DNA of 64,000 nucleotides from Gammaproteobacteria bacterium (GTDB lineage: Bacteria; Pseudomonadota; Gammaproteobacteria; Ga0077536), in contig JACQWY010000016.1 in NCBI GenBank assembly GCA_016209015.1, positions 62,001 to 126,000 of the forward strand. Direction: 5' to 3'. Below the pieces are notes generated by a model. It had not been told where the DNA came from, made no database searches, and saw only the letters and a program-made list of their open reading frames with translations. This document shows, piece by piece, positions 54,225 to 63,629 of this stretch. A program made the position numbers and the translations under genes. The stretch's first letter is position 1. Every line of letters starts with the position of its first letter.

Positions 54225-55895
54225 ATGTCCGACATCGAGATCGCCCAGAAGGCGAACAAGAAGCGCATCCTCGAACTCGCGTCCGCACGTTACGGCATCG
54301 ACGCCGAACATCTCGAGCCCTACGGCCACTACAAGGCGAAGCTGTCGCTGGAATACATCGACAGTCTGCAGAGCCGTTCCGACGGTCAGCTCGTGCTCGT
54401 CACCGCGATCAGCCCCACGCCGGCCGGCGAAGGCAAAACGACGACGACGGTCGGACTCGGCGATGCGCTGAACCGCATCGGCAAGCGCGCGATCATCTGC
54501 CTGCGCGAGCCTTCGCTCGGACCCTGCTTCGGTGTGAAGGGCGGCGCGGCCGGCGGCGGTTATGCGCAGGTCGTGCCGATGGAAGACATCAACCTGCATT
54601 TCACCGGCGACTTCCACGCGATCGGCGCTGCGCACAACCTGCTCTCGGCGATGATCGACAACCACATCAACCATGGCAACGCGCTCGGCATCGATCCGCG
54701 GCTCATCGCCTGGAAGCGCGTCGTCGACATGAACGATCGCGCGCTGCGCAAGATCGTGCTGGGCCTCGGCGGTACGGCGAACGGCTACGTCCGCGAGGAG
54801 GGCTACGACATCACAGTCGCCTCCGAGGTGATGGCAATCTTCTGCCTGGCGACCTCGCTCCACGATCTGCGCGATCGCCTCGGCAACATCGTCGTCGCCT
54901 ACACGACCGATCGCAAACCCGTGCGGGCGCGCGATCTCAAGGCGCACGGCGCGATGGCCGCGCTGCTCAAGGATGCGATCAAACCGAACGTCGTCCAGAC
55001 CCTGGAGAACAATCTCGCGTTCGTCCACGGCGGCCCGTTCGCGAACATTGCGCACGGCTGCAACAGCGTCACGGCGACGAAGACCGCGCTCAAGCTCGCC
55101 GACTACGTCATCACCGAAGCGGGCTTCGGCGCGGATCTCGGAGCGGAGAAGTTCGTCGACATCAAATGCCGCATGGCCGGGCTCGCGCCGAAGGCCGCGG
55201 TGCTCGTCGCGACGATCCGCGCGCTCAAGTACCACGGCGGCGTGAAGAAGGACCAGTTGAACAAGGAGAACCTGGAAGCGCTGACGCGCGGCCTCACGAA
55301 CCTCGATCGCCATGTCCACAACATCACGGAGAACTACGGGCTGCCCTGCGTGGTATGCGTCAACCATTTCACGCACGATACCGACTCGGAGATTGCGCTC
55401 CTGAAAGAGCACGTGACTCGCATTGGCGGCACGGCCGTCGTCGCCCGCCACTGGGCCGAAGGCGGGGCGGGTGCCGAGGAGCTCGCGCGCGCGGTGGTCG
55501 CGGCGATCGAACACAACAGCGGCACCCATCGCTACGTCTACTCGGACGAGGACAGTCTGTGGGACAAGCTCAATCGCATCGCGACCCGCATCTACGGCGC
55601 GAACGAGATTACGGCAAGTGCCAGAGTCCGCGCCCAGCTCGCGGAGTGGGATCAGGACTACCGACACTTCCCCGTGTGCATGGCGAAGACCCAGATGTCG
55701 TTCTCGACGGATCCGAACGCGCTTGGCGCGCCGAGCGGACACAGCGTCGAAATCCGCGAGGTGCGCCTCGCTGCGGGAGCGGGCTTCGTGGTCGCGATCG
55801 CGGGTGACATGATGACGATGCCCGGTCTCCCCAAGGTGCCCGCCGCCGAGAACATCGACGTCGACGCCGCAGGCAACATCACGGGTCTGTTCTGA
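54225..55895 (+). CDS. fhs: Formate-tetrahydrofolate ligase
   Basis: This 556-residue enzyme has the P-loop region [20 protein letters not shown] (~58-77), conserved [20 protein letters not shown] (~92-111), [19 protein letters not shown], and [20 protein letters not shown] (~301-320). It joins formate to tetrahydrofolate using ATP, the entry of formate into the folate pool (ftfL of methylotrophs). The ATG at 54225 has GGGAG eight bases upstream; the ATG at 54219 is in phase but too close to it. It stands alone on the plus strand, 6-10 kb from the malate-CoA ligase/malyl-CoA lyase/hydroxypyruvate reductase set. Length is normal. Confidence 0.96.
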
Positions 55896-55941
55896 GATCG
55901 GCCGACCGGTCGCGGCGACGCCGGGGCCGGCGTTTCGATTC

Positions 55942-56742
55942 CTAACGGCGGCTGGCGCGCGTCCCGCACTCCAGCTCGTCGACGGGCAGCCCCCCCCGCA
56001 TCGCGTAGGACAGCATGCGGATCTGGTGCGGCTCGACCGTCTGGTCGAGCTCGGCGATGCACAGGAAGTGCGAGGCGTACCAGATGGCATCGATCTCGCA
56101 GGCGATGTCGGCATCGTCGCCGTAATAGTCGGGATCCGGCGTGACGTTGTGGAAGCCGAGCTTCAGACGCGCGGCCTCGGCGCGCAGCAGCGGCGCGGCG
56201 CGGGAGATTCCGACCGCCACGATCTCGACCTGCGAGGCATTCCAGAGCGGCGCATTCAGCGCCAGGTATCGATCGAAATTCGCCTGGATTTCCGGCCGGC
56301 AGAGTTTCAGCGCAGGATCATGAATCAGGAGCCGCACCGGCGCCTGCGGATCGAGCGTCCGCCGCCACACCCCGGATAGTTCCACGTTCTTCGGCGCGCG
56401 CTTGAACAGCGGCGCAATTTCCGCGTCCGTGTAAGCCGTGGATTCGCAGGCGAAGCGCGCGACGCGATAGCGCCGGTCGGGATGCTTGTCGGCCTGCTGC
56501 ATGAACGTTGCGACGTAATTGCGGATGACCTGCAGCGGCAGAGTCTGCAGGTGGCTGTCACGATACGGGATCGCGTAGGCGTTGCCGTTGTAGGCGTTCC
56601 ACTTGCCTTCCGCCGCGCCATGGAAGCGCACCGCGAGCGACGCGCTGGCATCATCGTGCCGACCGCTCAGATTGGAGCCGTAGACGAAGCACGGCTCGTG
56701 CGTCGTGCCGAAATCGGGTCTTACGTGGACTCGAGCAACCAT
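55942..56742 (-). CDS. Unknown protein, paralog A of a tandem pair
   Basis: This 266-residue protein is homologous over its whole length to the gene immediately upstream (56787-57560). N-terminal block: CFVYGSNLSGRHDDASASLA, RFHGAAEGKWNAYNGNAYAI, PYRDSHLQTLPLQVIRNYV. Middle: RYRVARFACESTAYTDAEIA and PLFKRAPKNVELSGVW. C-terminal block: YYGDDADIACEIDAIWYASH. The first half recalls, from memory, a phage- and mobile-element-associated family with the pattern FVFGSN..G.HG.GAA...YAIPTKD...EIAPLF..., sometimes called A1S_2505-like. In that family a glycine-rich IGCG element occupies the position of FACESTAYT here, so the active centre, if any, differs. No signal peptide. The function is unknown. Confidence 0.65.
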   Translation of the reverse strand: MVARVHVRPDFGTTHEPCFVYGSNLSGRHDDASASLAVRFHGAAEGKWNAYNGNAYAIPYRDSHLQTLPLQVIRNYVATFMQQADKHPDRRYRVARFACESTAYTDAEIAPLFKRAPKNVELSGVWRRTLDPQAPVRLLIHDPALKLCRPEIQANFDRYLALNAPLWNASQVEIVAVGISRAAPLLRAEAARLKLGFHNVTPDPDYYGDDADIACEIDAIWYASHFLCIAELDQTVEPHQIRMLSYAMRGGLPVDELECGTRASRR

Positions 56743-56786
56743 GGGCTTCTACTCCAATCGAGGGCGTCGGCGATCACTGACGCCGT

Positions 56787-57560
56787 TCAACCAATGAGCT
56801 CGTCGACGACGAGACCGCCGCGCCGCGCACTGCCCAGCACCCGCATGTGCTCCGGCCTGCCGGTGTTCTCGACTTCGAAGAGGTCGACGAGATGTGTCGC
56901 ATACCAGACGGCCTTGCGTTCACATGTCAGCGCCGCGTCGTCGCCGTAGAACGACGTGTTCTGTCCGATGACGCGATGCCGACGGTTCAGCCGGCGCGCG
57001 AACTGCGCGGTCGCGCCGATGCCGGGCAGCGATCCGATACTCACGAATTCGACTTGGGCGGATCCACACTGCGCCGCCTTCCCGGCGAGGAAACGCTCCA
57101 TGAGCGTCTGGCGCGACGGCTCGGTGAGCGCTTCACCCGGATCGAAGACCAGCAGACGCACTGCACGGCGCGGATCGAGCGTGCGCAGCCATACACCGGG
57201 GAGCTGGCAGTTCTCGGGCGCATGCCGCCACAAATCGGACATCTGCACGTCCGTGTATTCTCCGGGCTCACAGGCGAAGCGCGTGATCTGGAACTGCAGG
57301 GCGGGCTTCTTGGCGATGTACTCGCAACATATGCTCACGTAATTGCCGATCACGTCGAGGGGCAGGAGGCGCATCTTGCTGTCGAGATAGGGCACCGCAT
57401 AGCAATTGCCGGCGGGCCCGTTCCACTTGCCGGCTGCGCCACCGTGGAAACGCGCTGCGACAGCGGCAGGCCCCTCGTTGTGATCACCGGCGATATTCGC
57501 GCCGAAGACGAAAACGGGCTCTTGCCCGGCGGCAAGGCGGGAAGGCGTCGAGACACTCAT
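56787..57560 (-). CDS. Unknown protein, paralog B of a tandem pair
   Basis: This 257-residue protein precedes and resembles paralog A. Its motifs correspond: VFVFGANIAGDHNEGPAAVA, RFHGGAAGKWNGPAGNCYAV, PYLDSKMRLLPLDVIGNYV, QITRFACEPGEYTDVQMSDL, LRTLDPRRAVRLLVFDPGEA and SFYGDDAALTCERKAVWYAT, SARRGGLVVDEL. Differences are spread across the protein, so the duplication is not recent. I chose the ATG at 57558-57560; the tracked frame extends 47 codons upstream through proline- and arginine-rich sequence. A 44-bp gap leads to paralog A, so they are probably co-transcribed. No catalytic residue set is evident. Confidence 0.62.
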   Translation of the reverse strand: MSVSTPSRLAAGQEPVFVFGANIAGDHNEGPAAVAARFHGGAAGKWNGPAGNCYAVPYLDSKMRLLPLDVIGNYVSICCEYIAKKPALQFQITRFACEPGEYTDVQMSDLWRHAPENCQLPGVWLRTLDPRRAVRLLVFDPGEALTEPSRQTLMERFLAGKAAQCGSAQVEFVSIGSLPGIGATAQFARRLNRRHRVIGQNTSFYGDDAALTCERKAVWYATHLVDLFEVENTGRPEHMRVLGSARRGGLVVDELIG

Positions 57561-57747
57561 CGGATCCGGGGTCCTCCAGCGGCTGCACGGGCCTCGCGCG
57601 CAGGCGGGCCGGTGCCGGTTTTTTCCTTGTGCTGGACATATCGGCGGCGGGCTGTGGGGCTTTCGGCGGGGCGGAAGGCGAGGTCTGCGCCTGGGGCGCA
57701 AAACATGACTTCGGTCACAGAACGACGGGCGACGAGCCCGCGTCGCG

Positions 57748-58449
57748 TCACTGTCCGGGGTCGAGCTCGATGCTTCCCGAGACCGTGACGGAGAGGGTTT
57801 GCGTGCCGGCCTCGATCGGCGGTGGGGCCGCCGCGATCCGGTCGGCGGCCATCGCCGCCCGCGCGGCGAACATCAGCGGCGGCTGGGCTCCGCCGGCCGT
57901 CGAGACCGAGATGCGGCCGAGACGGTAACCGTGCCGTCCGAACGCGCCGGCGACCTGCGCCGCACGCGCCTGGAAACGGGCGATGGCTTCCGTCGTGAGC
58001 GCCTCCTCGGCCGCGTTGCGGGCCGTCGTGGAAATGGCGAAGCTCAAGGATTCGACGGCGGTCCGCTCCTGGAGCACGCCGAGCAACTCGCTGATCGCCT
58101 TCGCGTCGTGCCCTTCGAGACGCAGCGACTGACGCGCGCGCCAGGCGGTGATGCGCCGATCGTCGTAGACCGGGTTCGTATAGTACTGCTGGGTCCGCGC
58201 CGTCACGCCGACGGACTGCTTCATCTGCTCCAGCGCCCAGGCGATCGCGGCGTTGACTTTCGCGGCGACATCGGCCTGCTTCGGACCGTCGGCCTCGGCG
58301 TAGACGCTCGCAACGAGCGTGTCGTTCGGCAGCTCGCGCTCGGCACTCGCGGAGATTTCGATTTCGTCGTGAGGACGGGCCTCCCCGGCACCGGCGCCCA
58401 GCGCGACGAGCGCCAGGCCCGCGATGGCCCCCGTCATGGCATTCGTCAT
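57748..58449 (-). CDS. SIMPL-domain (DUF541) periplasmic protein
   Basis: This 233-residue protein has a signal peptide (MTNAMTGAIAGLALVALGAG, cleavage near 25) and a SIMPL/DUF541 domain (BP26/OMP28 type): EIEISASAERELPNDTLVAS, ALEQMKQSVGVTARTQQYYT, RQSLRLEGHDAKAISELLGV and TAVESLSFAISTTARNAAEE, ending in SVTVSGSIELDPGQ. Members are periplasmic or outer-membrane-associated and form channel-like oligomers in Brucella; their role is not known. The ATG overlaps the preceding decarboxylase stop in ATGA, an unexpected coupling. Confidence 0.83.
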   Translation of the reverse strand: MTNAMTGAIAGLALVALGAGAGEARPHDEIEISASAERELPNDTLVASVYAEADGPKQADVAAKVNAAIAWALEQMKQSVGVTARTQQYYTNPVYDDRRITAWRARQSLRLEGHDAKAISELLGVLQERTAVESLSFAISTTARNAAEEALTTEAIARFQARAAQVAGAFGRHGYRLGRISVSTAGGAQPPLMFAARAAMAADRIAAAPPPIEAGTQTLSVTVSGSIELDPGQ

Positions 58450-59909
58450 GGCGATACTCCCTGATTCAGCGCGGCGGCCGCGGCCGCGATTTCCTGCCAC
58501 GCGGTCTCGACGTGGCCCGCCGCGACGTGGGTCTGACCGATGCAGAGCCGCAACGTATGGCGCTCCTCCACGACGGTATGCGAGAGATACATGCGGCCGC
58601 CTGCATTGAGCCGGGCCAGCAGTGCCCGGCTCGCTTCGTCGCCCCGGCGGTGACGGAAGCAGACGAGATTCAGGCTCACCGGGACGGCGAGCTCGAGATG
58701 CGGATCCGCCGCGATGCGCGCGCCGAGCTCCGCCGCGAGCGCGATGTGACGGCGCAGATGATGACGCAGCCCTGCCGCGCCGTAGTGGCGGATCACGAAC
58801 CAGAGCTTCAAGGCCCGGAAGCGCCTGCCGAGCGGAATCTGCCAGTCGCGGTAGTCGATGATGCCGCCGCTCTCGGATGCCGCATTGCGCAGGTATTCGG
58901 GCGTGATGCTCAGCGCGTCCGTCAGCGCCTTGCGATCGGCGACGAAGAACGCGCTGCAGTCGAAATTCGTGAACAGCCACTTATGCGGATTGAAGCAATA
59001 GCTGTCCGCGAGCTCCAGCCCGTCGAAAAGCACACGGTGCTCGGGACAAACCGCCGCGGAGCCGGCCATCGCGGCATCGACGTGCAGCCACAGCCCTTCG
59101 CGCGCGCAGATCTCGCCGATCGCCCGCAGCGGATCCGCGGCGAGCGTCGACGTCGTGCCGACGGTCGCGCAGACGAAGAAGGGCTTGCGGCCCGCGGCGC
59201 GATCGGCGGCGATCGCAGCCGCCAGCGCCTGCGGATCCATGGCGAAGCGTTCGTCGACGGAAATCTTGCGCAGGTTCGCGCGGCCGATGCCCGCGACGGC
59301 GATGCCCTTGTCGAGCGAGGAATGGGTCTGCGTCGAGCCGTAGGCGACGAGCCCGCCGCGGCCGCCGTGCGTGTTCGATTCGAAGCGGGTGGCTCGTTCG
59401 CGCGCCGCGAGCAGCGCGCAGAGCACCGCACTCGACGCGGAGTCCTGCAGCACGCCGCCGCCCGCCCCGCGGGAGCGGAATTTCTCCGGCAACGCCATGA
59501 GATCGACGAGCCAGTCGAGCATGTGGGTCTCGAGCTCGGTACAGGCGGGGCTCGTCGCCCACAACATGCCCTGCACGCCGAGGCCGGCCGAGAGCAGCTC
59601 GCCGAGTATCGAGGGCCCCGAGGTGTTCGCCGGGAAATAGGCGAAGAAAGCCGGCGCTTGCCAGTGCGTGATGCCGGGCAGCACGAGCTCGTCGACGTCG
59701 CGCAACCACGCATCGAAGCCTTCGTCGCCGTGCTCGGGTGGCGAGGCCGGCAGCGCCGCACGCAGCGCTCCCGGTTCGACCTGCGACTGCACCGGGAGCG
59801 TCGCGACGCGCTCGCGGTAGTCCGCGATCCAGTCGACGAGCGTGTGACCGGCGCGCCGGAATTCGTCGGGACTCATATGGAAATCATCGTCGTGCTTCAT
59901 CGGCGCCAT
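58446..59909 (-). CDS. Pyridoxal-phosphate aromatic-amino-acid decarboxylase-like enzyme
   Basis: This 487-residue group II decarboxylase has HWQAPAFFAYFPANTSGPSI (~85-104), the ATSPACTELETHMLDWLVDL (~120-139), and DSASSAVLCALLAARERA. WLHVDAAMAGSAAVCPEHRV carries the Asp that pairs with the PLP nitrogen, and the lysine for the Schiff base is in SYCFNPHKWLFTNFDCSAFF (~302-321). C-terminal RFRALKLWFVIRHYGAAGLR. Members decarboxylate tyrosine, phenylalanine, tryptophan or DOPA; substrate is not determined here. A start nine bases downstream (MKHDDD) is also possible. Coupled to the SIMPL gene by ATGA. Length is normal for the family (~470-490). Confidence 0.88.
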   Translation of the reverse strand: MAPMKHDDDFHMSPDEFRRAGHTLVDWIADYRERVATLPVQSQVEPGALRAALPASPPEHGDEGFDAWLRDVDELVLPGITHWQAPAFFAYFPANTSGPSILGELLSAGLGVQGMLWATSPACTELETHMLDWLVDLMALPEKFRSRGAGGGVLQDSASSAVLCALLAARERATRFESNTHGGRGGLVAYGSTQTHSSLDKGIAVAGIGRANLRKISVDERFAMDPQALAAAIAADRAAGRKPFFVCATVGTTSTLAADPLRAIGEICAREGLWLHVDAAMAGSAAVCPEHRVLFDGLELADSYCFNPHKWLFTNFDCSAFFVADRKALTDALSITPEYLRNAASESGGIIDYRDWQIPLGRRFRALKLWFVIRHYGAAGLRHHLRRHIALAAELGARIAADPHLELAVPVSLNLVCFRHRRGDEASRALLARLNAGGRMYLSHTVVEERHTLRLCIGQTHVAAGHVETAWQEIAAAAAALNQGVSP

Positions 59910-59955
59910 CCGGGGCTGGGAAGGCGCCGCCGGGTCGGCCGGCGGCGCGGCAGGA

Positions 59956-60435
59956 TCAGAGATTAGCGAGCACGTTCTGCGCGGCGCTCACCTTGAACTC
60001 GCCCGGCGCCTCGATGAACAAGTTCTTCACGACGCCGTGGTCGACGACCAGCGCGAAGCGCTGGCCGCGCGTGCCCATGCCATAGCCCGTCGCATCGAGC
60101 TCGAGGCCGAGCGCCTTCGTGTACGTGCAATTGCCGTCCGCGAGCATCAGCACCTTGCCGTCCGCGCCCGCGTGCTTGGCCCAGGCGCCCATCACGAACG
60201 CATCGTTGACCGCGAGGCAGGCGATTGCGTCCACGCCCTTCGCCTTGATCTGATCCGCGAGCTCGATGAAGCCCGGGAGATGCTTCGCGGAGCACGTCGG
60301 CGTGAACGCGCCGGGCACGGAGAACAACACCACTTTCTTGCCGCCGAAGAGCTCGTCCGCCTCGAGCTTGCCCGGGCCCTGCTCCGTCATGATGCCGAAG
60401 CTGCCCGCGGGCATCTTGTCGCCGATTTTGATCAT
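59956..60435 (-). CDS. Peroxiredoxin (Prx5-like)
   Basis: This 159-residue redoxin starts MIKIGDKMPAGSFGIMTEQG and has the peroxidatic Cys48 in VLFSVPGAFTPTCSAKHLPG (~36-55), which matches atypical Prx5 enzymes. Further cysteines occur in IACLAVNDAFVMGAWAKHAG (~73-92) and GNCTYTKALGLELDATGYGM (~103-122). It reduces peroxides with thioredoxin or glutathione as partner. The ATG at 60435 follows the family start; the tracked frame adds 17 uncharacteristic residues. Between the decarboxylase (46 bp) and hydroxypyruvate reductase-like gene (112 bp). Confidence 0.9.
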   Translation of the reverse strand: MIKIGDKMPAGSFGIMTEQGPGKLEADELFGGKKVVLFSVPGAFTPTCSAKHLPGFIELADQIKAKGVDAIACLAVNDAFVMGAWAKHAGADGKVLMLADGNCTYTKALGLELDATGYGMGTRGQRFALVVDHGVVKNLFIEAPGEFKVSAAQNVLANL

Positions 60436-60547
60436 GTCCGCTGTCCTCCGAGTCTGGGTGGGGTGAAGCTGGGAGCATTCTGCCATCGGGGCGGGTGCGG
60501 CGGTAGCGCGCCGCCAAACCCCGCCCGCCGCGCGGAAATGTGCGCGC

Positions 60548-61519
60548 TCAGGCCACCCGGTCGCGCGGTGGACGGCCTGCGAAATACGCCTCGAGGTTGT
60601 CGATCACGCGCATGCCCATCGCGACGCGCGTCTCGAGCGAGGCGCTGCCGAGATGCGGCAGCAGCACGACGTTCTCGAGCGTCTTCAAGGATTCGGGCAC
60701 GGCCGGCTCACCGTCGTAGACGTCGAGTCCCGCGCCGCCGAGCCGGCCGCTCTTCAGCGCCGCGACGAGCGCGTCCTGGTCGACGACGTCACCGCGCGCC
60801 GTATTGACGAGGAATGCGCCCGGCTTCATCGAGGCGAGTCGCTCTGCGTTCATGAGGTGCCGCGTCGCCGCACCGCCCGGGCAGTGCAGCGAGACGAAAT
60901 CCGCGCTCGCGATCACTTCCTCGGGTGTCGCGCACGCCGTCGCACCGAGTGCGTTCACGACTTCCGCGGACGGCGGGAAGGGATCGTTGAACAGGATGCG
61001 CATGCCGAAGCCGAAGTGCGCCTTGTGCGCCATGGCACGCGCGATGCGCCCGAAGCCGATGAGGCCGAGCGTCTTGCCGGTGACCTTGGCGCCCATCATG
61101 TGAGTCGGCCGCCAGCCGGTCCAGGCGTTCGTCCGCACGTGACGTTCGCCTTCGCCCGCGCGACGCGCGACCATGAGCATGAGCGTCATCGCGAGATCCG
61201 CCGTGCAGTCGGTGAGCACTTCCGGCGTGTTCGTGACGACGAGGCCGCGCTTCTTTGCGGCCTCGAGGTCGACGTGATTGAAGCCGACGCCGAAGTTGCC
61301 GAGTATTTTCGCGCTGAGGCCGTCGTGATCGAGTACCTCCGCATTGAACGTGTCGGACACCGTCGGACACACCGCATCCGCCGATTTCAGCGCGCGCGTC
61401 AGCTCCGCCGCGCTCATCGGCGTGTCCGTCGCGTTAAGGCTCACGTCGAACAGCTCCTTCATGCGCGCCTCGGCGGCCTCGGGCCAGCGGCGGGTGACGA
61501 CGACTTTCGGTTTGCTCAT
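60548..61519 (-). CDS. D-2-hydroxyacid dehydrogenase, likely hydroxypyruvate/glyoxylate reductase
   Basis: This 323-residue enzyme is of the 2-hydroxyacid dehydrogenase family. NFGVGFNHVDLEAAKKRGL (~75-93), NTPEVLTDCTADLAMTLMLM (~97-116), TLGLIGFGRIARAMAHKAHF (NAD-binding), LVNTARGDVVDQDALVAAL and VVLLPHLGSASLETRVAMGM (catalytic His near 288) are present. The pattern is closest to GyaR/GRHPR-type glycerate dehydrogenases. Its position 27 bp downstream of mtkB in the same orientation supports the serine-cycle role of reducing hydroxypyruvate to glycerate. It may also reduce glyoxylate. Confidence 0.85.
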   Translation of the reverse strand: MSKPKVVVTRRWPEAAEARMKELFDVSLNATDTPMSAAELTRALKSADAVCPTVSDTFNAEVLDHDGLSAKILGNFGVGFNHVDLEAAKKRGLVVTNTPEVLTDCTADLAMTLMLMVARRAGEGERHVRTNAWTGWRPTHMMGAKVTGKTLGLIGFGRIARAMAHKAHFGFGMRILFNDPFPPSAEVVNALGATACATPEEVIASADFVSLHCPGGAATRHLMNAERLASMKPGAFLVNTARGDVVDQDALVAALKSGRLGGAGLDVYDGEPAVPESLKTLENVVLLPHLGSASLETRVAMGMRVIDNLEAYFAGRPPRDRVA

Positions 61520-61546
61520 GCTTCTCCCCTCTCGTTGATCACGGCG

Positions 61547-62437
61547 TCAGCGCAAGCCCGCCAGCACGCCCGCTACGGTAGCACCGAACTCCGACGGATT
61601 GGGCACGACGGTGACGCCGCATTCCTGCAGGATCTCCACCTTCTCCGCGGCGCTCTCGCCGAACGCCGAGATGATGGCGCCGGCATGTCCCATGCGCCGG
61701 CCCTTCGGCGCGGTCAGGCCCGCGATGTAGCCGATGAGCGGTTTCTTCATGTGCGCCTTGAAGTAGCGTGCGGCCTCCGCCTCCTGCGGCCCGCCGATCT
61801 CGCCGATCATCACGACCGCCTGCGTCTCCGGATCCTGCTCGAAGAGCTCGAGGATGTCGCGGAACGAGCTGCCGTTGATCGGATCGCCGCCGATGCCGAC
61901 GCTCGTCGAGACGCCGATGCCGACGGCTTTCATCTGCGAGGCGGCCTCGTAGCCGAGCGTACCCGAGCGGCCCACGATACCGACGCTGCCCGGTTTGTAG
62001 ATGTGACCGGGCATGATGCCCAGCATCGCGCGACCCGGGCTGATCGTGCCGGCGCAGTTCGGGCCGGTGAGCCGCATGCGATGCTCCGCGCGATAACGGC
62101 GCATGTAGCGCTTCACGCGGATCATGTCGTGGGCGGGAATGCCGTCCGTGATCGCCACGCAGTACTGGATGCCGCCGTCGGCGGCTTCCATCAGCGAGTC
62201 GGCCGCAAACGGCGGCGGCACGAAGACGATGCTCGCATTCGCCCCCGTCGCGCTCACGGCTTCCTTCACGGTGTTGAACACCGGCCGGCCGAGGTGCGTC
62301 GTACCACCCTTGCCGGGCGTCACGCCGCCGACCACGTTCGTGCCGTACTTGATCATCTCGTCGGCGTGGAACGTGCCGATCTGCCCGGTGAAGCCCTGGA
62401 CGATGACCTTGGATTCTTCGTCGATGAGTATGGCCAT
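61547..62437 (-). CDS. mtkB: Malate-CoA ligase (malate thiokinase) alpha subunit
   Basis: This 296-residue protein has the CoA-binding domain ([40 protein letters not shown]) and a ligase domain with [40 protein letters not shown] and the phosphohistidine region [20 protein letters not shown] (~240-259). It belongs to the succinyl-CoA synthetase alpha family but resembles Mtk[11 protein letters not shown] and [20 protein letters not shown] are as in the methylotroph enzyme, from memory. It would form malyl-CoA from malate. It is preceded by mtkA (13 bp) with GGAGGA upstream of the ATG. True SucD cannot be fully excluded. Confidence 0.85.
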
Positions 62438-62450
62438 GTGCGTGTCCTCC

Positions 62451-63629
62451 TCAGTGCGCCGCACGGGCGCGGCGCCAAGCAGCGACGACGCGTTCCGCCG
62501 CTTCGGCGAGCGTGTCCGCCATGATGATGGGCAAACCGCTGTCGCGCAGGATCGCGCGGCCGGCCTCGACGTTCGTGCCGGCGAGCCGCACGACGAGCGG
62601 CATGCCGAGCTCGATCTTCTCGAGCGCCTGCACGATGCCCTCGGCGACCCAGTCACAGCGATTGATGCCGGCAAATATGTTGACGAGGATGGCCTCCACG
62701 TTCTTGTCGTTGCAGACGAGGCGGAACGCCTTGGCGACGCGTTCGGGCGAAGCACCGCCGCCGATGTCCATGAAGTTCGCGGGCTCGCCGCCGGCGTGCT
62801 CGATCATGTCCATCGTCGCCATCGCGAGGCCCGCGCCGTTGATGATGCAGCCGATGTTGCCTTCGAGGCCGACGTAGGAAAGCCCGCGATCCGCGGCCTG
62901 CATTTCGCGCGGATCCTCCTGCGACTTGTCGCGGAACTCCGCGATCGACGCGCGCCGGAACAGCGCGTTGTCGTCGAAGCCCATCTTCGCATCGAGCGCG
63001 AGCAGTCTGCCGTCGCGCGTGACGACGAGCGGATTGATCTCGACCATCACGGCATCGAGATCGCGGAACGCGCGATAAGCGCCCATCAATGCGCGCACGG
63101 CCTGGGTGATCAGCGCGGGTGGAATCTTCAAGGCGAAGGCGATTTCGCGCGCCTGGAAATCCTGCATGCCGACCGCGGGCTCGATCGCGCAGCGGATGAT
63201 GGACTCCGGCGAGTCCGCTGCGATCTCCTCGATCTCCATGCCGCCGCTCGCCGAGGCGACGACGACGATGCGCTCCTGCGAGCGATCGAGCACGATGCCG
63301 AGATAGAGCTCGCGCTCGACATCCGTCGCGGCCTCGACGTAGAGACGATTGACGATCCTGCCGCGCGCGCCGGTCTGCTTCGTGACGAGGCGCTTGCCGA
63401 GCAGATCCTCGGCCGCCGCGCCGACTTCGGCATCGCTCGTGCACATCTTGATGCCGCCGGCCTTGCCGCGGCCGCCGGAATGGATCTGGGCTTTGACGAC
63501 CCAGCGCTCGCCGCCGATCTCGGCGGCCCGGTACTGGGCCTGTTCGGGACTGTAGGCGAGCCCGCCGCGCGGCACGTCGATGCCGAAATTGCGGAGCAGC
63601 TCTTTCGCCTGATACTCGTGGATGTCCAT
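62451..63629 (-). CDS. mtkA: Malate-CoA ligase (malate thiokinase) beta subunit
   Basis: This 392-residue protein starts [20 protein letters not shown] and has an ATP-grasp domain ([20 protein letters not shown], ~40-59), [20 protein letters not shown] (~198-217), and a C-terminal ligase domain with [40 protein letters not shown] and [20 protein letters not shown]. The family is succinyl-CoA synthetase beta; the adjacent alpha subunit, hydroxypyruvate reductase-like gene and malyl-CoA lyase C-terminus favour the malate enzyme of the serine cycle. The ATG at 63629 has GGAGGAG upstream. Confidence 0.85.

Follow-up and report, generated by a model that had tools for sequence, protein, structure and literature searches.

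Macro and SLOG domains in phages and plasmids

Fusions among SLOG, Macro, NADAR, and DUF4326 domains have been reported in phages (Iyer et al. 2022, PMC9503650; jumbo-phage survey, PMC7824862), where their predicted role is the processing or sensing of ADP-ribose derivatives (PMC9503650, PMC7824862). Here we compare these proteins with the products of 2 adjacent genes, P1 and P2, in a 64,000-nucleotide stretch of a Gammaproteobacteria bacterium genome (NCBI GenBank assembly GCA_016209015.1, contig JACQWY010000016.1, positions 62,001 to 126,000), referred to below as the window. The macro-SLOG(-DUF4326) proteins of phages and plasmids that are predicted to process ADP-ribose derivatives (PMC9503650) appear to contain the same 2 domains as P1 and P2, and the plasmid forms have an equal domain order and a similar length. 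The forms compared keep their SLOG motifs and are carried on plasmids or phage contigs, whereas the window family is chromosomal, seems to be largely vertically inherited, and looks re-tooled.

Among IMG/VR phages, the macro and SLOG domains are mostly encoded by separate genes, and in some phage contigs these genes lie within a few kilobases of each other (L105/L106/L155/L156, L170-172, and L132/L199). Phage fusions with the SLOG domain first and the macro domain second also occur (L141:4001-4717, L144, L140, and L124), and these reverse-order proteins support a functional link between the 2 domains. The adjacent genes and the 2 arrangements that follow point to the same link. One phage protein (L096:3971-4858) joins the A1S_2505 domain to a YpsA-type, not a YAcAr-type, SLOG, and a triple fusion of DUF4326, A1S_2505 macro, and YAcAr SLOG domains with intact SLOG motifs (L095:9250-10341, plus strand) comes from a genome in another family of the class and has HNH-like genes close by.

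Two tandem paralogs of a conserved protein family

The 2 genes of the window are:

55942..56742, minus strand: P1, putative macro-SLOG fusion protein, 266 aa (ORF, BLASTP, NF049995, alignment, AF2 model)
56787..57560, minus strand: P2, paralogous putative macro-SLOG fusion protein, 257 aa (ORF, BLASTP, NF049995)

P2 sits 44 bp upstream of P1 in tandem on the same strand; its 257 aa are counted from an ATG, and an alternative frame that begins at a TTG is longer, at 304 aa. An earlier note, made from the letters of the window, had described 2 adjacent minus-strand proteins of 266 and 257 residues that share co-linear motifs from end to end, and this description holds: both ORFs exist at the coordinates above, every motif quoted occurs in order in both proteins, and the 2 are 43% identical across 243 aa without gaps (BLASTP E 7e-75). 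Their resemblance is far beyond chance, and they are full-length paralogs.

P1 had no match in Pfam or among PDB sequences, and scans of genome contigs and viral contigs with a single protein yielded no relatives, only a single weak match. Same-length relatives nevertheless occur in another 17 genomes of the order; counting the window genome, full-length relatives are present in 18/36 genomes of the order and in 16/23 of the good-quality ones. The open frames are near-constant in length across genera, and dN/dS in 5 close pairs of relatives is 0.10-0.25 overall (N-terminal half ≤0.31, C-terminal half ≤0.20). Because of the same-length relatives in 17 other genomes and these dN/dS values, the macro-SLOG proteins are a genuine protein family.

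Tandem pairing is not a general feature of this family. A single copy is found in 12/18 carrying genomes, 2 dispersed copies in 2/18, and a tandem pair in 4/18 (the window genome G000, G016, G009, and G025). The tree neither joins P1 and P2 as sisters nor rejects their grouping, and with it a recent duplication (p-AU 0.139). The same-strand arrangement with its 44 bp gap, together with the tandems in G016, G009, and G025, could be read as an obligate heteromeric system of 2 proteins, as the earlier note had entertained should the pairing recur in other genomes. We regard this as improbable and find it unsupported because only 4/18 carrying genomes have the pair; the single or dispersed copies of the other 14 and a tree that does not separate P1 and P2 into 2 ortholog classes both count against it. 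The tandem copy of G025 (L030:1507-2289) has a long branch, is missing much of the first loop of the macro domain, and is possibly decaying.

The N-terminal half resembles a TARG1-like macro domain

The N-terminal halves are as follows:

56353..56700, minus strand: P1 N-terminal A1S_2505/macro-type domain, residues 15-130 (NF049995, phrog_2072, AF2, TARG1 match)
57177..57524, minus strand: P2 N-terminal A1S_2505/macro-type domain, residues 13-128 (NF049995 E 7.3e-25)

Both proteins belong to NCBIfam NF049995 (A1S_2505_Nterm), with 98.5 bits for P1 (E 2.4e-28) and 87.4 bits for P2 (E 7.3e-25) against a curated cut-off of 45 bits, and the N-terminal half of P1 matches phrog_2072 with an E of 3.9e-28. 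This is the phage family with FVFGSN and YAIPTKD motifs of which the earlier note had been reminded, and 348 phage records match it. The likeness to this phage non-structural protein (NF049995/phrog_2072) covers the N-terminal 110 residues with their FV[FY]G[SA]N..G.H and YA[IV]P motifs. The phage members examined are mostly stand-alone proteins of about 115-140 aa, whereas the window proteins are chromosomal, apparently fused to a SLOG domain, and different at the T-K and GCGLAG motifs.

The AF2 model of P1 has a mean pLDDT of 74, with values mostly >80 in the N-terminal half. Human TARG1 with ADP-ribose leads its structural matches (Z 10.3 over 112 residues, and Z 10.0), followed by the TTHA0132 macro domain (Z 8.6) and DarTG-ADPR (Z 8.0), and the predicted structure of the N-terminal half has the alpha/beta fold of macro domains, as had been suspected from the sequence. 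The likeness to TARG1 (C6orf130/OARD1) and to DarG-type macro domains is one of predicted fold (Z 10.3 and 8.0), with an identity of only about 8-11%; in the window proteins, the lysine is replaced by R or L and GCG by ACE. A profile built from the phage forms alone found TARG1 constructs as its top PDB sequences at a marginal E of 0.036, in an alignment that spans the ITK and IGCGLD segments. Lys84 and Asp125 of TARG1, which we take to be the catalytic residues of this type, fall in these segments. From the structural match to TARG1 and the marginal match of the phage profile, we propose that the A1S_2505 domain, widespread in phages, is a TARG1-like macro domain.

Neither the TARG1-type lysine nor the aspartate is present in the window family. 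The lysine is found in 92% of intact forms versus 0/28 members of the clade to which the window proteins belong (described below), with R in 22/28; it is R61 in P1 and L in P2. Where the aspartate would be, the phage forms, too, have Ala. The GCGLAG loop has become ACESTA in P1 and ACEPGE in P2, and thus both the second glycine loop and the macro lysine have changed in the lineage of the window. The suggestion that the binding site was changed or lost is borne out as to change, since glycine loops and lysine are altered; as to loss, the K to R substitution is conservative, and binding may persist.

The C-terminal half as a probable divergent SLOG domain

An extension of ~120 residues had been noted behind the first half, and it is indeed present; what we add is its probable identity as a second known domain:

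55966..56352, minus strand: P1 C-terminal, predicted divergent SLOG domain, residues 131-259 (hhalign to plasmid/phage YAcAr SLOG; AF2; YpsA match)
56790..57176, minus strand: P2 C-terminal, predicted divergent SLOG domain, residues 129-257 (aligns with P1 and with plasmid SLOG fusions)

In plasmid proteins that share the N-terminal domain, a Pfam PF10686 YAcAr SLOG lies at the matching position, and P1 and P2 align from end to end with PF10686 fusions of equal layout from plasmids. A profile of the C-terminal half of the family matched the plasmid SLOGs with an hhalign E of 9.6e-9 and 56 phage SLOGs with a probability of 74% (E 2.8e-5), compared with a probability of 0.1-0.2% in a control against macro profiles. 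P1 and P2 themselves fall short of the PF10686 gathering score and have no Pfam match, and PF10686 has no match anywhere in the genome. Neither the A4 SLOG profile nor the A1 profile had a relevant match among PDB sequences.

Structure prediction agrees with the profile comparison. A joint alignment of 62 sequences from separate macro and SLOG proteins placed the SLOGs wrongly onto the macro half, and the domains were therefore modelled separately. Modelled alone with AF2, the C-terminal domain reached a pLDDT of 86.6 and matched YpsA with a Z of 11.1 (rmsd 2.9, 122 residues; next chain Z 9.5), a match that is not wholly independent because SLOG sequences were in the alignment behind the model. 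The full-length model of P1, whose C-terminal half was informed by P1 and P2 only, gave weak Foldseek matches that include viral DUF2493/YspA-SLOG proteins; the Foldseek E-values (best 0.02 for the full-length model and 0.0025 for the C-terminal model) are not convincing by themselves. Together, hhalign and the YpsA match point to a Rossmannoid SLOG fold in the predicted model. Compared with the YAcAr/YpsA SLOGs (PF10686, PF06908; B. subtilis YpsA 2nx2), the C-terminal domain aligns co-linearly in profile comparison and has a similar predicted fold (Z 11.1), whereas the GSR, GxAxGxD, AGxxRNxxM, and WDGxSxGT motifs have been lost in the window family, which Pfam does not detect. P1 and P2 are very probably fusions of a macro and a SLOG domain, which gives a domain identity to both halves of an uncharacterised chromosomal family.

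Pocket motifs are replaced under purifying selection

The clade that contains the window proteins has 28 members, drawn from the order of the window and 3 other families of the class, and separates from the intact plasmid forms with a support of 100/100. Most of the SLOG signature residues (AG, G.D, W, N, M, and G.S.G) are retained in 0-4% of this clade versus 90-100% of the intact forms, and the R of RN and the T of GT in 14%; the GSR, GxAxGxD, RN, and WDGxSxGT signatures are thus nearly all gone from the clade. Other residues have become near-invariant in their stead, with D142 after strand 1 kept in 26/27 clade members and E216, at the N position of RN, in 25/27. P1 and P2 do not have some of the residues common elsewhere in the clade (the ND pair). 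An intermediate-looking protein (G105) retains AGG after strand 1.

The loss of canonical motifs, the patchy presence in 18/36 genomes, and one long-branch copy (G025b) would be expected if these were decayed pseudoproteins of phage origin, functionless remnants. We consider this very improbable, as the dN/dS of 0.10-0.25 in 5 close pairs already disfavours remnants, the frames remain open at near-constant length across genera, and the family has both new conserved residues and synteny. Purifying selection, combined with uniform replacement at the former pocket positions, speaks for a pocket that was re-tooled, not decayed.

On balance, we favour a domesticated, re-tooled phage-type macro-SLOG protein that acts as a non-catalytic or re-specified sensor of a nucleotide ligand. 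Each gene would combine a TARG1/DarG-type macro domain (A1S_2505_Nterm) with a YAcAr/YpsA-type SLOG domain, an architecture that forms part of the phage and plasmid repertoire with a predicted role in processing or sensing ADP-ribose derivatives. A copy would have moved from there into the chromosome of a gammaproteobacterial-type ancestor and then been inherited largely vertically, while the phosphate/nucleotide-binding motifs of the SLOG, the macro lysine, and the second loop were presumably swapped for other conserved residues. The present product could be a binder, sensor, or regulator for a nucleotide or ADP-ribose-like ligand, of which the window genome would have 2 diverged tandem copies. 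A repurposed sensor or binding protein is probable because the active-site residues have been replaced while selection still keeps the protein. Replacement of motifs under purifying selection predicts that the folds are retained and that the ligand is different or catalysis absent, and it points to bacterial domestication of a virus-type nucleotide-signal module. A more specific version, in which the nucleotide pocket of a captured phage-type ADP-ribose module was rebuilt to yield a host receptor or enzyme with a new ligand or reaction, is possible and more tentative; if true, the rebuilt module would make up a new class of receptors or enzymes built from macro and SLOG domains.

Genomic neighbourhood and alternative functions

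The gene pair is flanked by:

54225..55892, plus strand: formate--tetrahydrofolate ligase, fhs (PF01268 E 2e-266; syntenic in other genera of the order)
57751..58449, minus strand: SIMPL-domain protein (PF04402 E 8e-35; syntenic on the opposite flank)

The genes run in the order enolase, KDO8P synthase, CTP synthase, formate-THF ligase, P1, P2, SIMPL, PLP decarboxylase, peroxiredoxin, 2-hydroxyacid dehydrogenase, and succinate/malate-CoA ligase, and Pfam matches on both flanks agree with the metabolic surroundings noted earlier. In view of these housekeeping, syntenic neighbours we reject a phage or prophage nature of the locus, which shows no mark of a phage or defence island. A promoter scan at the locus found nothing, and terminator-like hits there carry no evidential weight. 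Gene contexts elsewhere were taken from fetched stretches with a home-made gene caller, which missed genes in the g10 genomes. Formate-THF ligase was located near the macro-SLOG gene at 6 more loci from the order (L071, L072, L075, L079, L087, and L088); the remaining family members adjoin unrelated genes.

This synteny with fhs in several genera is one reason to consider a neofunctionalised enzyme, in which D142 after strand 1 and E216, on the helix that formerly bore RN, would form a new acidic set that catalyses some other reaction, with a host metabolite as substrate and possibly linked to one-carbon or serine metabolism. The old motif positions carry one new residue each (D in 26/27, E in 25/27), unlike in decay, and dN/dS of the C-terminal half is similar to or below that of the N-terminal half. 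Such an enzyme seems unlikely to us all the same: other members adjoin unrelated genes, and the metabolic link is therefore weak, and no known enzyme motif was recognised.

The domain architecture equals that of the phage and plasmid fusions, for which there is a published prediction (PMC9503650), and the window proteins could accordingly be imagined as active hydrolases of ADP-ribose signals in anti-phage or anti-defence conflict. However, the canonical SLOG residues are gone, P1 and P2 match none of the PADLOC-DB models of known anti-phage defence, the surroundings are housekeeping, and none of the neighbours observed is related to defence or NAD; we hold hydrolysis of this kind to be quite improbable. 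The re-tooled, non-catalytic or re-specified sensor remains our preferred reading.

Two observations concern the neighbours themselves. From 54225 to 63629, the window holds formate-THF ligase, 2-hydroxyacid dehydrogenase, and CoA ligase subunits, of which beta matches a malate-CoA ligase model, which suggests a serine-cycle-like gene cluster. A conserved protein of ~205-221 aa without a Pfam match (cluster c5; L075:9079-9693 and L072:12380-13042), missing from the window, is encoded between the macro-SLOG gene and the SIMPL gene in several genomes.
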